This document shows positions 39,080 through 45,540 of a stretch of 64,000 nt of DNA, in pieces. Below the pieces are notes generated by a model. The model saw only the letters and a list, made by a program, of their open reading frames with translations. It ran no database searches and had not been told where the DNA came from. A program made the position numbers and the translations under genes. The first letter of the stretch is position 1. Each line of letters starts with the position of its first letter. The DNA is taken from positions 166,256 to 230,255 of the forward strand of contig NZ_JARXWI010000006.1 in NCBI RefSeq assembly GCF_029893085.1, given 5' to 3'. The stretch comes from Parabacteroides sp. PFB2-10. GTDB lineage: Bacteria; Bacteroidota; Bacteroidia; Bacteroidales; Tannerellaceae.

Positions 39080-39110
39080 TTTGCGCGTTTAGATTATTAT
39101 CCTACATTTG
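39080..39110 (+). promoter_or_regulatory. Promoter of the ilv operon
   Basis: TTTG at 39080-39083, 19 nt, then TACATTTG at 39103-39110: both boxes match the Bacteroidetes consensus at the preferred spacing. Transcription would start near 39117, about 24 nt before the leader peptide. Confidence 0.85.
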
Positions 39111-39140
39111 CATCGTCAAAAGAAAAAATGACGCATAATC

Positions 39141-39200
39141 ATGACAACAAACGTATTGCATATTATTCTCGTGGTCGTCCTTCTAGTCATTAGCAGGTAA
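39141..39200 (+). CDS. ilv operon leader peptide (branched-chain attenuator)
   Basis: A 19-codon reading frame, MTTNVLHIILVVVLLVISR then TAA. Twelve of the 19 residues are Ile, Leu or Val, ten of them in the 12-residue run from Leu6 to Ile17 region. It lies between a perfect promoter and a terminator ahead of ilvD. A ribosome short of charged Ile/Leu/Val tRNA would stall here and leave 39203-39210 free to form the antiterminator; a ribosome that reaches the stop codon covers it. This is the logic of ilv leaders in enteric bacteria. Translation itself is inferred. Confidence 0.85.
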   Translation: MTTNVLHIILVVVLLVISR

Positions 39201-39250
39201 GTGAGAAAGGTATGCATATAGTTATGTAAGTCATAAATGATAGTTGTAGG

Positions 39251-39279
39251 CCTTTCTCCGTAGAGAAGGGTCTTTTTTA
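39251..39279 (+). terminator. ilv attenuator (terminator / antiterminator switch)
   Basis: Stem CCTTTCTC (39251-39258) / GAGAAGGG (39263-39270) with a CGTA loop is followed by TCTTTTTTATTTT. The 5' arm CCTTTCTC is also perfectly complementary to GAGAAAGG at 39203-39210, 3 nt after the leader stop codon; the alternative stem has eight pairs and would prevent the terminator, whose stem has one G-U pair. Confidence 0.85.
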
Positions 39280-39310
39280 TTTTAATGAAACGAAAACAAA
39301 CAACGGTAGG

Positions 39311-41140
39311 ATGAAAATAAAATTGCGCAGTTCACAAAGCACAGAAGGTCGACGGATGGCCGGCGCACGCGCCCTATGGCGGGCCAACGGAATGAAAGAA
39401 GAACAGTTTGGTAAACCGATTATCGCCATCGTAAACTCGTTTACGCAATTTGTACCGGGTCATGTGCATCTGCACGAGATCGGACAACGGGTGAAGGCGG
39501 CCATCGAGGCACAGGGCTGTTTTGCGGCTGAGTTTAATACAATCGCGATCGACGATGGCATTGCTATGGGACACGATGGCATGCTCTATTCGTTGCCCTC
39601 CCGGGATATTATCGCGGACAGCGTGGAATATATGGTCAATGCCCATAAAGCGGATGCGATGGTATGTATCAGCAACTGCGATAAGATCACACCGGGTATG
39701 CTGATGGCCTCTATGCGATTGAATATTCCTACGGTTTTTGTATCCGGAGGGCCGATGGAAGCTGGAGAACTGGATGGACGCTACCTGGATCTGATCGATG
39801 CCATGATCGAAGCGGCCGACGATTCGATCAGTGACGAACAGGTGGAGAAGGTGGAACGCTCGGCTTGTCCTACCTGCGGAAGCTGTTCCGGCATGTTCAC
39901 CGCCAACTCCATGAATTGCCTGAATGAGGCGATCGGACTGGCGCTTCCGGGCAATGGAACGATCGTGGCAACACATGCCAACCGGACATCGCTCTTCGAC
40001 CAAGCCGCCCGGCTGATTGTAGAAAATGCTTACAAATACTACCGCGACGGCGACGAATCGGTATTGCCCCGCAATATTGCCACCCGCCAGGCGTTTCTCA
40101 ACGCTATGTCGCTCGACATCGCGATGGGCGGATCCACCAATACGGTGCTTCATCTACTGGCCGTGGCCCATGAAGCAGAAGTTGATTTCAGCATGCAAGA
40201 CATCGACCGGCTCTCGCGCCAGACACCGGTGCTGTGCAAAGTGGCACCAAGCTGCGCGTATCATGTGCAGGATGTGAACCGCGCAGGCGGTATACTCGGC
40301 ATATTGGCGGAACTCGACAAAGGTGGACTGATTGACGGATCGGTGAAACGGGTAGATGGACTGACCCTGTCGGAAGCGATTGATCAGTACGACTTGCTCT
40401 CGCCCAACCGAACTGAAGAGGCGGTAAAAATATATAAAAGTGCACCGGCGCACCGGTTCAACCTGGTGATGGGATCACAAGAGATGTATTATAAAGAGGT
40501 AGATACCGACCGGGCAACCGGTTGCATCCGCGATATGTCGCATGCCTACGTCAGAGACGGAGGATTGGCTGTATTGTATGGAAACATTGCCGAAGCCGGC
40601 TGCGTGGTGAAAACGGCAGGTGTTGACGAAAGTATCTTCCGCTTCTCAGGTCCGGCAAAGGTGTTCGACTCACAAGAGGCTGCCTGTGAAGGAATACTAC
40701 GGGGCGATGTTGTCTCCGGTGATGTGGTGGTGATTATCTACGAAGGTCCTAAAGGAGGACCGGGTATGCAGGAAATGCTTTATCCCACCTCCTATATCAA
40801 GAGCCGCCACCTGGGCAAAGAATGTGCCCTGATCACCGACGGGCGCTTCAGTGGAGGCACTTCCGGACTCTCCATCGGGCATATCTCGCCCGAAGCGGCT
40901 GCCGGCGGTGCAATCGGGCTGGTCAAAGACCATGATATCATTGAGATAAACATACCGGAACGCACGATCAACGTAAAAGTAAACACGGAGGAACTGGCCG
41001 AACGGCGTGCAGCGGAAGAGGAGAGGGGCGCAAAAGCCTTTACCCCACCAACCCGCCAACGTGAAATAAGTAAGTCGCTGAAAGCCTATGCATCGATGGT
41101 CTCTTCGGCAGATAAGGGAGCGGTTCGTTTGATCGATTAA
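39311..41140 (+). CDS. ilvD: Dihydroxy-acid dehydratase
   Basis: A 609-residue iron-sulfur dehydratase, third common step of Ile and Val synthesis. Cluster and metal-site cysteines are in [14 protein letters not shown] and [20 protein letters not shown]; the active-site region [20 protein letters not shown] and the Mg-binding [20 protein letters not shown] are intact. First structural gene after the attenuator. Its TAA stop is followed at once by an AT-rich repeat and three tandem hairpin modules before ilvB. Confidence 0.97.
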
Positions 41141-41265: not shown

Positions 41266-42963
41266 ATGAGTTCACAAAAAATAACCGGGTCGGAAGCTTT
41301 ATTGAAGACCCTGATAGCAGAGGGAGTAGATACGATATTCGGTTATCCGGGTGGGCAGGCTATTCCAATTTTTGATAGTCTGTATGATTATGAAGACCAG
41401 TTAAAGCTTGTATTGGTGCGTCACGAACAGGGGGCGACCCATGCGGCACAGGGCTATGCCCGCGTGTCGGGCAAGGTAGGGGTGACGCTTGTTACCTCCG
41501 GACCTGGAGCTACTAACACCATCACCGGCATTGCTGACGCGATGATGGATAGCACACCTATTGTTGTTATCACCGGGCAGGTGCCTTCGCCTCTGTTGGG
41601 AACCGATGCTTTTCAGGAGATCGATGTGATCGGCATTACGCAACCTATCACCAAATGGGCCTACCAGGTGCGCAAACCGGAAGAGATTGCCTGGGCTATC
41701 TCACGAGCATTCTATATCGCTTCTACCGGGCGTCCGGGGCCGGTTGTGATCGACCTGGCGAAAGATGCGCAGGTAGGACTGATCGACTATGCCTACGAAA
41801 AGGTGAATACGATACGCAGTTACCAGCCCTATCCGGATATTGATTTTACACAGATCCAGGCGGCTGCCGAGCTGATAAACAATGCCAAGAAGCCATTTGC
41901 GTTGGTAGGGCAGGGGGTAATCCTGGGACATGCGGAAGAGGCATTGAAAGCCATGCTGGAGAAAGCGAATATTCCTGCCGGCTTAACTGTATTGGGTCTT
42001 TCCGCTTTGCCAAGCGATCATCCGTTGAATAAAGGGATGTTAGGTATGCATGGTAATGTGGGTCCTAACCTGAAAACAATGGAATGTGATGTGTTGATCG
42101 CCATCGGTATGCGTTTCGACGACCGGGTAACAGGCAATCTGCAGACCTATGCCAAGCAGGCAAAGGTGATCCATTTCGATATCGACAACAGTGAGATCGG
42201 GAAAAATGTAGCCGTTGATGTGCCGGTTTGTGGCGATGCCAAAGAGACGCTTGCCGCCATAACCGAACTGCTTGATACGACCACCCATACGGAATGGATC
42301 GCTTCGTTCCGACAAGCGGAAGAAGAAGAGGATCAGAAGGTTATTCAAAAGGAGATTCATCCAACGGAAGGCTACCTGAAAATGGGCGAAGTGATCCGTC
42401 GCATATCGGAAGCCACTGGCCATAACGCGGTACTCGTGACCGATGTCGGGCAGAATCAAATGATGGGCGTGCGCTATTTCAAATACAACGAAACGCGAAG
42501 TGTAGTCACCTCAGGTGGCTTAGGCACAATGGGCTTCGGGCTTCCGGCAGCCATCGGCGCGAAGATGGGTGCGCCCGACCGCACGGTTTGCCTCTTTATG
42601 GGCGACGGTGGACTGCAAATGACTATCCAGGAACTGGGTACTATCATGCAGGAAAACCTAAATATCAAAATGGTGGTACTCAACAATAACTTCCTCGGCA
42701 TGGTACGCCAGTGGCAGGAACTCTTCTTCAAAGAGAGGTATTCGGGTACAGTGATGGTCAACCCCGATTTTGTGGCCATCGCAAAAGCCTACGGAATAGG
42801 CAGCCGGTTGGTGGAGAAACGGGAAGAATTGGATGGGGCGATCGCAGAGATGCTCGATCATGACGGCGCCTATCTATTGGTAGCCAACGTAGAATCGCAT
42901 GGTATGGTCTACCCGATGGTACCCGCCGGTGCCAGTATAACCCAGATTCTTTTGGGAGAATAA
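41266..42963 (+). CDS. ilvB: Acetolactate synthase, large catalytic subunit
   Basis: A 565-residue thiamine-diphosphate enzyme that makes acetolactate or acetohydroxybutyrate. The catalytic Glu is in LVRHEQGATHAAQGYAR near residue 50; the FAD-binding middle domain and the C-terminal ThDP motif GDGGLQMTIQEL...VVLNNNFLGMVRQWQ are complete. It is paired with the regulatory subunit gene 32 bp downstream. The 125-bp gap before it contains hairpin repeats, so its expression may depend on transcript stability there. Confidence 0.97.
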   Translation: MSSQKITGSEALLKTLIAEGVDTIFGYPGGQAIPIFDSLYDYEDQLKLVLVRHEQGATHAAQGYARVSGKVGVTLVTSGPGATNTITGIADAMMDSTPIVVITGQVPSPLLGTDAFQEIDVIGITQPITKWAYQVRKPEEIAWAISRAFYIASTGRPGPVVIDLAKDAQVGLIDYAYEKVNTIRSYQPYPDIDFTQIQAAAELINNAKKPFALVGQGVILGHAEEALKAMLEKANIPAGLTVLGLSALPSDHPLNKGMLGMHGNVGPNLKTMECDVLIAIGMRFDDRVTGNLQTYAKQAKVIHFDIDNSEIGKNVAVDVPVCGDAKETLAAITELLDTTTHTEWIASFRQAEEEEDQKVIQKEIHPTEGYLKMGEVIRRISEATGHNAVLVTDVGQNQMMGVRYFKYNETRSVVTSGGLGTMGFGLPAAIGAKMGAPDRTVCLFMGDGGLQMTIQELGTIMQENLNIKMVVLNNNFLGMVRQWQELFFKERYSGTVMVNPDFVAIAKAYGIGSRLVEKREELDGAIAEMLDHDGAYLLVANVESHGMVYPMVPAGASITQILLGE

Positions 42964-42995: not shown

Positions 42996-43544
42996 ATGGA
43001 AAAGAAATTATATACGGTGATTATTTTCTCGGAAAATACAGTGGGATTATTGAACCAGATCACCATCATATTTACTCGTCGTCAACTGAATATTGAGACT
43101 TTATCCGTATCTCCTTCGGCTATAAAAGGGGTTCATAAGTTTACAATTACTACTTTTGCAACCGAAGACATGATGGACAAAGTTGTAAAGCAGATCGATA
43201 AACGGGTGGATATCCTGAAAGCCTATTACAATACGGATGAAGATCTGGTGCATCAGGAGATCGCTCTTTACAAACTGAGTACAGATTTGTTTATCAAGAT
43301 GCCCGGCGTGGAAGCCCTTATCCGCAAATACAATGCGCGGGTACTGGAAATCGATGAAGACATTGTCGTATTGGAAAAGAGCGGCCATTACGCGGAGACG
43401 CAGGCTCTCTTCAAGGAACTAAGCGAGACGATTGGTGTCCTGCAGTTTATCCGCTCCGGTCGTATTGCCATCACAAAAAGCAAAGTAGAGCGGTTAAGCG
43501 ATATGCTGGCCACGATGGAACAGAAAGTTAATGATGAATGTTGA
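42996..43544 (+). CDS. ilvN: Acetolactate synthase, small regulatory subunit
   Basis: A 182-residue regulatory subunit. The N-terminal ACT domain is YTVIIFSENTVGLLNQITII then RRQLNIETLSVSPS (about 5-75), the valine-binding type. A second, less conserved ACT-like half follows and ends with FIRSGRIAITKSKVERLSDML. It activates IlvB and gives valine feedback control in the family. The last residues (NDEC) and the stop arise from the ATGAATGTTGAATGATGAATT repeat that begins the next gap. Confidence 0.94.
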   Translation: MEKKLYTVIIFSENTVGLLNQITIIFTRRQLNIETLSVSPSAIKGVHKFTITTFATEDMMDKVVKQIDKRVDILKAYYNTDEDLVHQEIALYKLSTDLFIKMPGVEALIRKYNARVLEIDEDIVVLEKSGHYAETQALFKELSETIGVLQFIRSGRIAITKSKVERLSDMLATMEQKVNDEC

Positions 43545-43606: not shown

Positions 43607-44332
43607 ATGAACAAAGTAGGTGAATTTCATTTTGTAACAGAAGAATATCTGTTGGATTTCAGAGGGAGGGTAACGATTCCGATGATCGGGAACTACCTGA
43701 TCCATGCTGCATCCAATCACGCTTCTACCCGTGGGTTCGGTTATGGTGATATGAATGAGAAAAATACCGCCTGGGTATTATCGCGCCTGGCTATCGAGAT
43801 TATGGAGTATCCCGAACGATCCGAAAAGATCACCCTATACACCTGGATCGACGAAGTAGGCAAACTGTTCACCAGCCGCTGCTTCGAACTACAAAACGAA
43901 GCGGGGAAATCGATCGGTTATGCCCGCTCTATCTGGGCGGCTATCGACATGGAGACACGTCGTCCGACCCTGTTGGATATAGAGGCGCTGGGAGTATATA
44001 TTACAGATCGCCCCTGTCCTATTGAAAAACCGGGCAAGATTGCTCCCGTAGAGGGGAAAACGGAAGGCATTCCTTACGAGGTCAAGTATAGCGATATCGA
44101 TATCAACGGCCACCTCAACAGCATCAAATACATGGAGCACCTATTGGATCTGTTCGATCTGGCGCTTTTCCGCGAGCATGAGATCCGCCGTTTTGAGATT
44201 GCTTACCAAGCGGAAGGTAAGTACGGCATGCCACTCACCCTACACAAAGGGGAACCGGAAAACGACAAATACGACATGGCTATCTGTCATGAAGGCAAAG
44301 CCATTTGCCGGGCAGCGGCAATATGGGAGTAA
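43607..44332 (+). CDS. Acyl-ACP thioesterase
   Basis: A 241-residue double hot-dog protein of the acyl-ACP thioesterase family. Family blocks are VTIPMIGNYLIHAASNHA, the first-half TAWVLSRLAIEIMEYPERSE and the second-half YSDIDINGHLNSIKYMEHLLD, where the Asn and His of NGHLNS belong to the catalytic site. It should release fatty acids from acyl carrier protein. It sits between ilvN and ilvC in a same-strand operon; a link between branched-chain precursors and branched fatty acids would be a reason for this but is inference. Confidence 0.92.
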   Translation: MNKVGEFHFVTEEYLLDFRGRVTIPMIGNYLIHAASNHASTRGFGYGDMNEKNTAWVLSRLAIEIMEYPERSEKITLYTWIDEVGKLFTSRCFELQNEAGKSIGYARSIWAAIDMETRRPTLLDIEALGVYITDRPCPIEKPGKIAPVEGKTEGIPYEVKYSDIDINGHLNSIKYMEHLLDLFDLALFREHEIRRFEIAYQAEGKYGMPLTLHKGEPENDKYDMAICHEGKAICRAAAIWE

Positions 44333-44430: not shown

Positions 44431-45477
44431 ATGGCAATTATGAATTTTGGCGGGGTTCAGGAGAACGTAGTAACCCGCGAAGAGTTTCCGTTGGAAAAGG
44501 CAAGAGAAGTATTAAAAGACGAGACCATCGCCATCATTGGTTATGGCGTGCAAGGCCCTGGCCAGAGCCTGAACCTGCGCGACAACGGATTCAACGTGAT
44601 CATTGGTCAGCGTAAAGGAGGTAAAACATGGGACAAGGCAGTAGCCGACGGTTGGGTGCCGGGTGAAACCCTGTTTGAAATAGAAGAGGCATGCGAACGC
44701 GCAACCATCATACAATACCTGTTGTCTGACGCGGCACAGATCGAAGTATGGCCACGCATCAAGCCATACCTAACCCCCGGGAAAGCACTTTATTTCTCGC
44801 ACGGATTCGGTATCACCTACAAAGAACGTACCCACATCATCCCTCCGGCAGATGTGGATGTGATCTTAGTTGCACCGAAAGGTTCGGGTACTTCGCTTCG
44901 TCGTATGTTCCTCGAAGGACGTGGTTTGAACTCCAGCTACGCTATTTTCCAGGACGCGACCGGCAAAGCTTGGGATCGCGTAGTAGCATTGGGTATCGGT
45001 GTAGGTTCGGGTTATCTGTTTGAAACTACCTTCCAGAAAGAGGTGTATTCAGACCTGACCGGCGAACGTGGCACCCTGATGGGCGCTATCCAGGGTATTC
45101 TATTGGCACAATACGAGGTATTGCGCGCCAACGGACACACACCTTCCGAAGCATTCAACGAAACCGTGGAAGAACTGACCCAGTCGTTGATGCCTCTCTT
45201 TGCGGAAAACGGTATGGACTGGATGTATGCCAACTGCTCTACCACCGCTCAGCGCGGCGCGTTAGACTGGATGGGACCGTTCCACGATGCCTCTAAACCG
45301 GTTTTCGAAAAGCTGTACGCTGAAGTAGCCAACGGCAATGAAGCACAACGCTCCATCGACACCAACAGCAAGCCCGACTACCGCGAAGGATTGGAAAGAG
45401 AACTGAAGGCTCTGCGCGAAAGCGAAATGTGGCAGGCAGGCGCGGTGGTGCGCAAATTGCGTCCGGAGAACAACTAA
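44431..45477 (+). CDS. ilvC: Ketol-acid reductoisomerase
   Basis: A 348-residue enzyme for the second step of Ile-Val synthesis. The Rossmann motif is AIIGYGVQGPGQSLNLRDNG, the cofactor-specificity loop VIIGQRKGGKTWDKA, and the knotted C-terminal domain contains LRRMFLEGRG, SDLTGERGTLMGAIQGI and CSTTAQRGALDW with metal ligands. The Arg-Lys in the loop would suit NADP, but some related enzymes prefer NADH, so the cofactor is not certain. Last gene of the operon; a terminator follows 25 bp after the stop. Confidence 0.96.
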   Translation: MAIMNFGGVQENVVTREEFPLEKAREVLKDETIAIIGYGVQGPGQSLNLRDNGFNVIIGQRKGGKTWDKAVADGWVPGETLFEIEEACERATIIQYLLSDAAQIEVWPRIKPYLTPGKALYFSHGFGITYKERTHIIPPADVDVILVAPKGSGTSLRRMFLEGRGLNSSYAIFQDATGKAWDRVVALGIGVGSGYLFETTFQKEVYSDLTGERGTLMGAIQGILLAQYEVLRANGHTPSEAFNETVEELTQSLMPLFAENGMDWMYANCSTTAQRGALDWMGPFHDASKPVFEKLYAEVANGNEAQRSIDTNSKPDYREGLERELKALRESEMWQAGAVVRKLRPENN

Positions 45478-45501
45478 GAAGACAAATGGATAATTGATAA
45501 T

Positions 45502-45540
45502 GGGTAATTGATAGTGTGTCAATTACCCATTTCTTTTTTA
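45502..45540. terminator. Terminator between ilvC and the BF3164-like gene
   Basis: GGGTAATTGA / TCAATTACCC with a short loop, then ATTTCTTTTTTA. It is built from the AATTGAT heptamer family, whose other units on both sides also flank it, and serves the two convergent genes. Confidence 0.85.

Follow-up and report, generated by a model that had tools for sequence, protein, structure and literature searches.

The locus described here lies in a 64,000-nucleotide stretch of DNA from Parabacteroides sp. PFB2-10, which we call the window, and it comprises an ilv operon and the leader in front of it, both on the forward strand. The first gene under the control proposed below is ilvD, encoding dihydroxy-acid dehydratase (39311..41140; PF00920, PF24877), and it is followed by ilvB and ilvN for the large (41266..42963; three TPP-enzyme domains) and small (42996..43544; PF10369, PF22629) subunits of acetolactate synthase, by an acyl-ACP thioesterase gene (43607..44332; PF01643, PF20791) and by ilvC for ketol-acid reductoisomerase (44431..45477; PF07991, PF01450). 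A terminator-like hairpin, judged by sequence and predicted fold, marks the 3' end of the operon (45499..45531). The thioesterase gene thus interrupts the run of ilv genes, separating ilvN from ilvC. The ilvD-ilvB-ilvN-thioesterase-ilvC operon makes the very amino acids to which the leader would respond.

Upstream of ilvD, a promoter-like sequence of the Bacteroidota consensus type (39080..39110) consists of TTTG (39080-39083), a 19-nt spacer and TACATTTG (39103-39110), and places the predicted transcription start at about 39114-39118. The leader peptide frame MTTNVLHIILVVVLLVISR follows (39141..39200, with ATG at 39141 and TAA at 39198-39200), 12 of whose 19 codons specify Ile, Leu or Val, and after it a predicted intrinsic terminator (39248..39278) with an 11-pair stem (39248-39273), a 4-nt loop and a U-tract (39273-39278). 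A preliminary description of this DNA had reported the succession of promoter, 19-codon peptide with 12 branched-chain codons and U-tract terminator, and both its letters and its coordinates proved right. An upstream ATG in another frame (39128-39193; MTHNHDNKRIAYYSRGRPSSH) overlaps the leader; the leader frame at 39141 recurs in relatives.

Four segments can be recognized in the leader RNA. Segment 1 (39157..39171), which spans codons Leu6 to Val11, is predicted to form a protector hairpin with 39202-39216 (14 pairs, one mismatch, duplex -14.9 kcal/mol, p = 0.007 against leader shuffles). Segment 2, GAGAAAGGT (39203..39211), begins 14 nt past the first base of the last Ile codon and would be the 5' arm of the antiterminator, whereas segment 3, GCCTTTCTC (39250..39258), is common to the antiterminator, with segment 2, and to the terminator, with segment 4, GAGAAGGG (39263-39270); segment 3 can also pair with GAGAAGGGT (39263-39271). 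The claimed perfect complementarity between the terminator's 5' arm and the bases behind the peptide is borne out base for base, GAGAAAGG (39203-39210) being the exact complement of CCTTTCTC (39251-39258), and segment 2 sits where it had been placed, except that two bases (39201-39202) rather than three intervene after the stop codon. The eight-pair core of the terminator contains a single G-U pair (39253-39268), and a second one (39250-39271) outside the core brings the full stem to two. The 1:2 pairing goes beyond the preliminary description; with the predicted 1:2, 2:3 and 3:4 pairings all present, the four-segment anatomy of a classical attenuator is complete. The pattern CCTTTCTC...GAGAA...TTTTT occurs once in the organism's own genome, at this ilv leader.

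The leader feature is real and beyond chance. The two strands of the window contain 559 ATG frames that are 10-40 codons long, and the leader frame scores highest of them all for Ile/Leu/Val; among 5000 dinucleotide-shuffled versions of the intergenic region, 3 matched its score. A chance origin of the frame was rejected on these two counts. The antiterminator helix in the window reaches p = 0.01 against shuffles, and the fold of 39120-39290 has z = -3.84. When segment 2 is free and the RNA ends at 39259, the minimum-energy fold is the antiterminator (-18.1 kcal/mol); once the RNA extends to 39275, the terminator state is lower (-20.1 kcal/mol versus -18.1 kcal/mol for the antiterminator). Masking segment 2 yields the terminator as predicted fold, and without a ribosome the 1:2 hairpin and the terminator are predicted together. 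Because the terminator state is thus predicted to be slightly more stable, the switch would be kinetic, with the antiterminator forming first. The earlier view of the antiterminator as the better helix, free of mismatch where the terminator has a G-U pair, is correct letter for letter for the eight pairs but fails for the folded states.

Recurrence among ilvD relatives

From a scan with IlvD, the best 80 of 596 matches were kept as loci, and more were added from the genomes of relatives. An ATG frame with a score of at least 4 is present in 79 of 126 ilvD upstream regions (window counted), as against 102 of 1260 shuffles. In all, 130 ilvD loci were screened, with two copies skipped (L001, L133), 33 falling under the leader cut-off, four lacking a U-tract and one being a duplicate, which left 90. 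Eight of these, doubtful by eye, were set aside (L037, L042, L046, L053, L062, L068, L076, L077; L046 and L077 later matched the covariance model described below), as were L082, nearly identical to the window, and L110, a fragment that ends early, leaving 80 loci including the window. A terminator-like hairpin with U-tract is found in 61 of 65 leader-bearing loci, and a strong antiterminator helix is absent in 13 of 80. The 1:2 pairing reaches p < 0.05 in 29 of 67 loci (window counted), which are not independent events because many are close kin. A promoter-like TTTG-N17-21-TAnnTTTG lies within 90 nt 5' of the leader in 55 of 77 loci (window counted), compared with 6 of 1540 shuffles.

Within the window's own family, 19 further loci (L111-L129), its closest matches rather than the whole family, carry a leader of the MNNVLHIILVVVLLVISR type or a near variant, cut by the contig start in L111 and L121, and then GGAGAAAGG or a near variant followed by an arm of the CCTTTCTCC type. 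In the same family, L102 has a leader of a different kind, and no leader was seen in the sequence upstream of ilvD in L103 and L107. Since the leader region of L001 is that of family member L086, the family takes in a MAG labelled Tannerellaceae. Farther afield the two antiterminator arms change together, GAGAATGG with CCATTCTC in L047, GGAAGGGCT with GGCCCTTCC (one G-U) in L054, GAAGAAAGGT with ACCTTTCTTC in L024 and AATCGGTAT with ATGCCGATT in L110. In L017 the contig ends within the leader, and the covariance model still matches the element there. Two Ile/Val-rich leader frames stand in tandem 5' of ilvD in L070 and L073, where the model gives weak matches at the upstream position of both loci and at the downstream position of L070.

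The element has limits within and around the order. None of the nine Prevotella-type ilvD loci (L045, L049, L050, L053, L058, L061, L062, L072, L076) matches the model; eight of them carry a Prevotella or Prevotellaceae label, and Marseilla is counted with them. Two further loci with a Prevotellaceae label, L010 and L026, do have a leader. Most loci bearing the label of another phylum fall under the leader cut-off. A phylum-wide IlvD search of 148 genomes at E <= 1e-150 proved too strict and returned the window's own gene only, while a repeat over 99 genomes yielded ilvD loci of other classes, of which 29 were read. Several of these ilvD loci from other Bacteroidota classes have Ile/Leu/Val-rich frames and no similar terminator, and we therefore make no claim beyond Bacteroidales. 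In four ilvD loci of another class (L189, L194, L198, L200) the Ile/Leu/Val-rich frames are followed by a common CCCAAGTCC motif and by no similar intrinsic terminator, perhaps reflecting another mode of control.

Spacing between the regulatory codons and segment 2

Of the 80 loci, 67 (window counted) have a strong helix, and the position of segment 2 was analysed in these. Segment 2 starts 13.2 +/- 2.5 nt past the first base of the nearest preceding Ile, Leu or Val codon; relative to the stop codon its start lies at 0.8 +/- 7.4 nt, the stop ranging from 7 nt before to 26 nt after, and in some species (L013, L025, L039, L093) the frame reads through into segment 2 and extends the peptide. Because the nearest Ile/Leu/Val codon is close by construction, offsets were permuted among loci: distances of 12-16 nt make up 84% of the real values versus a permuted mean of 54%, and the corresponding figures are 80% versus 46% when each distinct peptide is represented by a single locus (n = 54) and 65% versus 31% outside the window's family as listed (n = 31), with 0 of 1000 permutations as tight in each case. 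A ribosome's footprint extends about 12-15 nt beyond the A site. What these sequences conserve is how far the switch lies from the regulatory codons, in keeping with a requirement that a ribosome stalled there just clear segment 2.

Covariation of the alternative stems

Both stems were examined in an alignment of 52 leaders hand-picked from the 90 (A2). This alignment is biased towards pairing because eight leaders whose helices are weak or differ (L007, L028, L032, L070, L073, L079, L102, L104) were omitted by hand; adding them back gives a 60-row alignment (A3) with weaker figures. For the terminator, 95.9% of cells in A2 are paired, both sides vary in seven of nine pairs, and the covariation score of 0.320 compares with 0.192 in shuffles, none of 500 reaching it and no slid version equalling the real stem on any measure; in A3, 95.0% of cells are paired and the score is 0.394 versus 0.231, again with 0 of 500 shuffles. 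For the antiterminator, the window's pairs hold in 93.8% of A2 cells, compared with 89.2 in shuffles and 44-66 in slid versions, five of its eight pairs change on both sides, and the score of 0.176 versus 0.109 is reached by 0 of 500 shuffles, although a three-column slide exceeds the real helix on two of five measures (double-change pairs and further pair types). With A3, 87.5% of cells are paired (shuffles 82.5) at a score of 0.212 versus 0.137; on three of the five measures none of the 500 shuffles comes up to the real helix, on the remaining two 6 and 85 of them do, and on three of the five a slid structure does as well or better. These alignments lend strong comparative support to the putative terminator stem, and support for the proposed antiterminator, drawn from the share of paired cells and the covariation score, is good but falls short of decisive.

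The preliminary description had looked to aligned Bacteroidales for conservation of the peptide composition and both stems, and the Ile/Leu/Val-rich leader and both stems do recur, and covary, in many of them. It had also held that relatives lacking either would tell against its reading. Here the outcome is divided: many relatives carry leader and stems, but the nine Prevotella-type loci and L103 and L107 do not.

A covariance model (R1), built from A2 with the terminator pairs, was run on 148 Bacteroidales genomes including the window's own, and gave 58 matches in 40 genomes at E <= 0.001. Judged by the best downstream tblastn match, 51 of the 58 lie on ilv or leu operons (30 ilvD, 20 leuA, 1 ilvB); for one leuA case (L233) that match is partial only and starts 842 bases downstream, and for the ilvB case (L264) it starts 334 bases downstream. 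The remaining seven comprise four before gltB and three that resemble plain terminators at gene ends (L268, L270, L271). The window's own 3.69-Mb assembly contains two matches only, at ilvD and leuA. At the same threshold 108 of the 148 genomes have no match. Some were missed through the stricter filters applied to more than 40 genomes and through the model's fixed arm sequence, for example G027 (leader L108) and G031 (leader L104), and ilvD was not found in 7 of 40 genomes checked. The leader by itself suffices for the model to find ilv and leu operons, and the model might be made into a library family.

Leaders before other operons

In the window's own genome, leuA (L130, G000:C1) is preceded by an Ile/Leu-rich leader, MRNLVNNIINISIIILLWPQDRK, which spans the stretch between 208 and 136 nt 5' of the frame start, with a promoter-like sequence of the same type as that of the ilv leader and a predicted antiterminator that pairs GGAAGTGAG, lying across the stop codon, with CTCACTTCC in the terminator. 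Twelve leuA loci were read: in the seven with a leader the antiterminators reach p 0.003 to 0.03, no leader was found in L157, L159, L160 and L166, and L162, read out of frame, has the same terminator sequence about 250 bases upstream of the gene. The hisG gene of the same genome (L141, G000:C2) follows a six-His leader, MKYSILHHHHHHCNEQ, with the same layout and CGGTGGGCTT against AGGCTTGCCG, and relatives have poly-His leaders with alternative hairpins before hisG (L134-L140). The layout is present in all eight his leaders tested, with antiterminator p-values from 0.003 to 0.086, below 0.05 in four and 0.056 in the own genome's.

Leaders of other kinds were seen as well. Before thrA, five of eight genomes (L180, L181, L182, L185, L186) have a leader frame that keeps its amino-acid sequence (A-Y-Y/H-T-W-A-L, followed by T-P and mostly W-G-V) and is not rich in a single residue, a sixth case (L183) having the TTTPWGV end only; the thrA leaders have no Rfam match, and their conserved peptide could possibly be an attenuator or an arrest peptide of another kind. 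An attenuator-like terminator and antiterminator lie 5' of gltB, encoding the large subunit of glutamate synthase, in L231, L247, L260 and L266, where the short frames have no obvious amino-acid bias and two have HSNTV in common. At trpE of G030 (L147), the leader frame MTEIRTNWWWHHYSRQTGA with three Trp codons is followed by a hairpin-like stretch and a U-tract, and a search of the window's own genome with the trpE N-terminal domain family returned none.

Discussion

Our analysis points to a leader in which a short peptide rich in Ile, Leu and Val is followed by two mutually exclusive predicted hairpins, and on this sequence evidence 39080-39279 is very probably a classical ribosome-mediated transcription attenuator. 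The basis of this reading is anatomy, recurrence, covariation, spacing and genomic specificity; from it we infer translation of the leader, termination, coupling and the response to tRNA charging. We suggest that RNA polymerase would start near 39116 and a ribosome at 39141. When Ile, Leu and Val are plentiful, the ribosome would reach the stop codon at 39198 and its footprint would cover segment 2 (39203-39211), leaving segment 3 (39250-39258) to pair with segment 4, and transcription would end at 39273-39278. When any of the three is scarce, the ribosome would stall at the codons between 39153 and 39191, on or past segment 1, with segment 2 free; pairing of segments 2 and 3 before segment 4 is made would then preclude the terminator, and ilvD-ilvB-ilvN-thioesterase-ilvC would be transcribed. 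In the absence of a ribosome, segments 1 and 2 would pair and termination would be the default.

Other readings of the leader have to be weighed against attenuation. A small hydrophobic membrane protein, functional as such and unrelated to the terminator, would agree with the resemblance of Ile/Leu/Val-rich peptides to membrane helices and with the conservation of the leader frame within the window's family. Across the order, however, the peptides differ greatly in length, in where they stop and in the residues that separate leucines and valines, yet their spacing to segment 2 is preserved, and this preserved spacing speaks against the peptide working as a protein; as further points against it, the read-through variants (L013, L025, L039, L093) extend the peptide into segment 2 and the same layout occurs with a poly-His peptide before hisG, and we regard a membrane protein as very improbable indeed. 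The peptide might instead be translated and the control exerted at translation, or via Rho or general coupling, rather than by the choice of an intrinsic terminator, a notion to which the Ile/Leu/Val leaders of L189, L194 and L217, outside the order and without a recognizable intrinsic terminator, lend some colour; we hold it to be very unlikely, given the terminator-like hairpin and U-tract in 61 of 65 leader loci and the strong covariation of that stem.

Control by a T-box or metabolite riboswitch, with the frame arising by chance, would be unremarkable in that both are common controls of amino-acid operons. Yet there is no Rfam match in the window at gathering, nor in 12 ilv, leu, his and trp leader loci at E <= 0.5, and the leader frame is far beyond chance, which makes such a switch extremely unlikely; the Rfam leader families (His, Leu, Thr, Trp and Bacteroid-trp) likewise have no match in the window or the loci tested. 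We find it just as hard to credit that the hairpin is the terminator of the upstream ABC-transporter gene, whose stop (39004) it follows by 244 bases: a promoter-like sequence and the leader intervene, and a homologue of that gene lies in the available flank of 2 of 82 leader loci, whereas the hairpin follows 61 of 65 leaders, so the terminator hardly belongs to the ABC gene.

Returning to attenuation by a translating ribosome, a single genome has such leaders before ilv, leu and his, and further variants precede thrA and gltB, which inclines us to think that Bacteroidales run their amino-acid operons on widespread classical attenuation. Bacteroidales are a dominant gut order, and in Bacteroidota translation mostly starts without a Shine-Dalgarno sequence. 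With a well-defined attenuator one could study directly how Bacteroidales control amino-acid synthesis, and it would put transcription-translation coupling in Bacteroidota to the test, since the ribosome must closely trail RNA polymerase; if our reading is true, the first ribosome and RNA polymerase would move in step in a phylum that mostly begins translation without Shine-Dalgarno pairing.

Familiar precedents are the ilvGMEDA, leu and his leaders of E. coli, with the same four-segment logic, a leader rich in the operon's own amino acids and a terminator before the first gene; they differ from the Bacteroidales ilv leader in that first gene and in peptide and arm sequences. Comparative predictions of attenuators by Vitreschak et al. 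(2004) reportedly include some in Bacteroidetes/Chlorobi among other groups, and Lopatovskaya et al. (2010) are said to have surveyed such predictions of classical attenuators. Bacteroid-trp RNA precedes trp genes. Like the element described here, that RNA (RF01692) is a predicted cis-regulatory RNA of Bacteroidetes (PMC2864571), but it concerns trp and is unmatched in the loci tested here. In the same phylum, a study of Flavobacterium psychrophilum reports strong indications that leader peptides attenuate amino-acid operons, and lists structured 5' elements before pheA and hisG, but its main text does not mention ilv and its section 19 gives neither alternative pairing nor covariation (PMC9723704). 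For B. thetaiotaomicron, short frames in long 5' UTRs are called reminiscent of leader peptides (PMC7366714). Naville and Gautheret (2010) stated that, as far as they knew, no leader-peptide system outside Proteobacteria and Actinobacteria had been demonstrated until their own case in Firmicutes (PMC2965389).

The literature searched, outside which most subscription journals fall, holds no description of the Bacteroidales ilv element. The preliminary description, aware of no case described at this locus, is nonetheless contradicted at the level of the gene by ilvD attenuators described in Listeria and S. aureus (PMC5864092, PMC5794164). Rli60, the ilv-leu leader of Listeria monocytogenes, was shown to be a ribosome-mediated attenuator and resembles the present leader in its place before ilvD, its branched-chain-rich peptide, its segments 1-4 and the order of its stem energies, the 3:4 terminator (-17.1 kcal/mol) being more stable than the 2:3 antiterminator (-10.3); Rli60 differs in belonging to another phylum, in its 13-residue peptide and in transcription under CodY (PMC5864092). 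The S. aureus attenuator likewise has an Ile/Leu-rich leader, of 26 residues, before ilvD and then a terminator, and mutations in it raise expression, but its predicted antiterminator pairs with the U-tract rather than with the 5' arm of the terminator (PMC5794164). What is new here is therefore the element and its breadth across Bacteroidales, the type of mechanism being already known.
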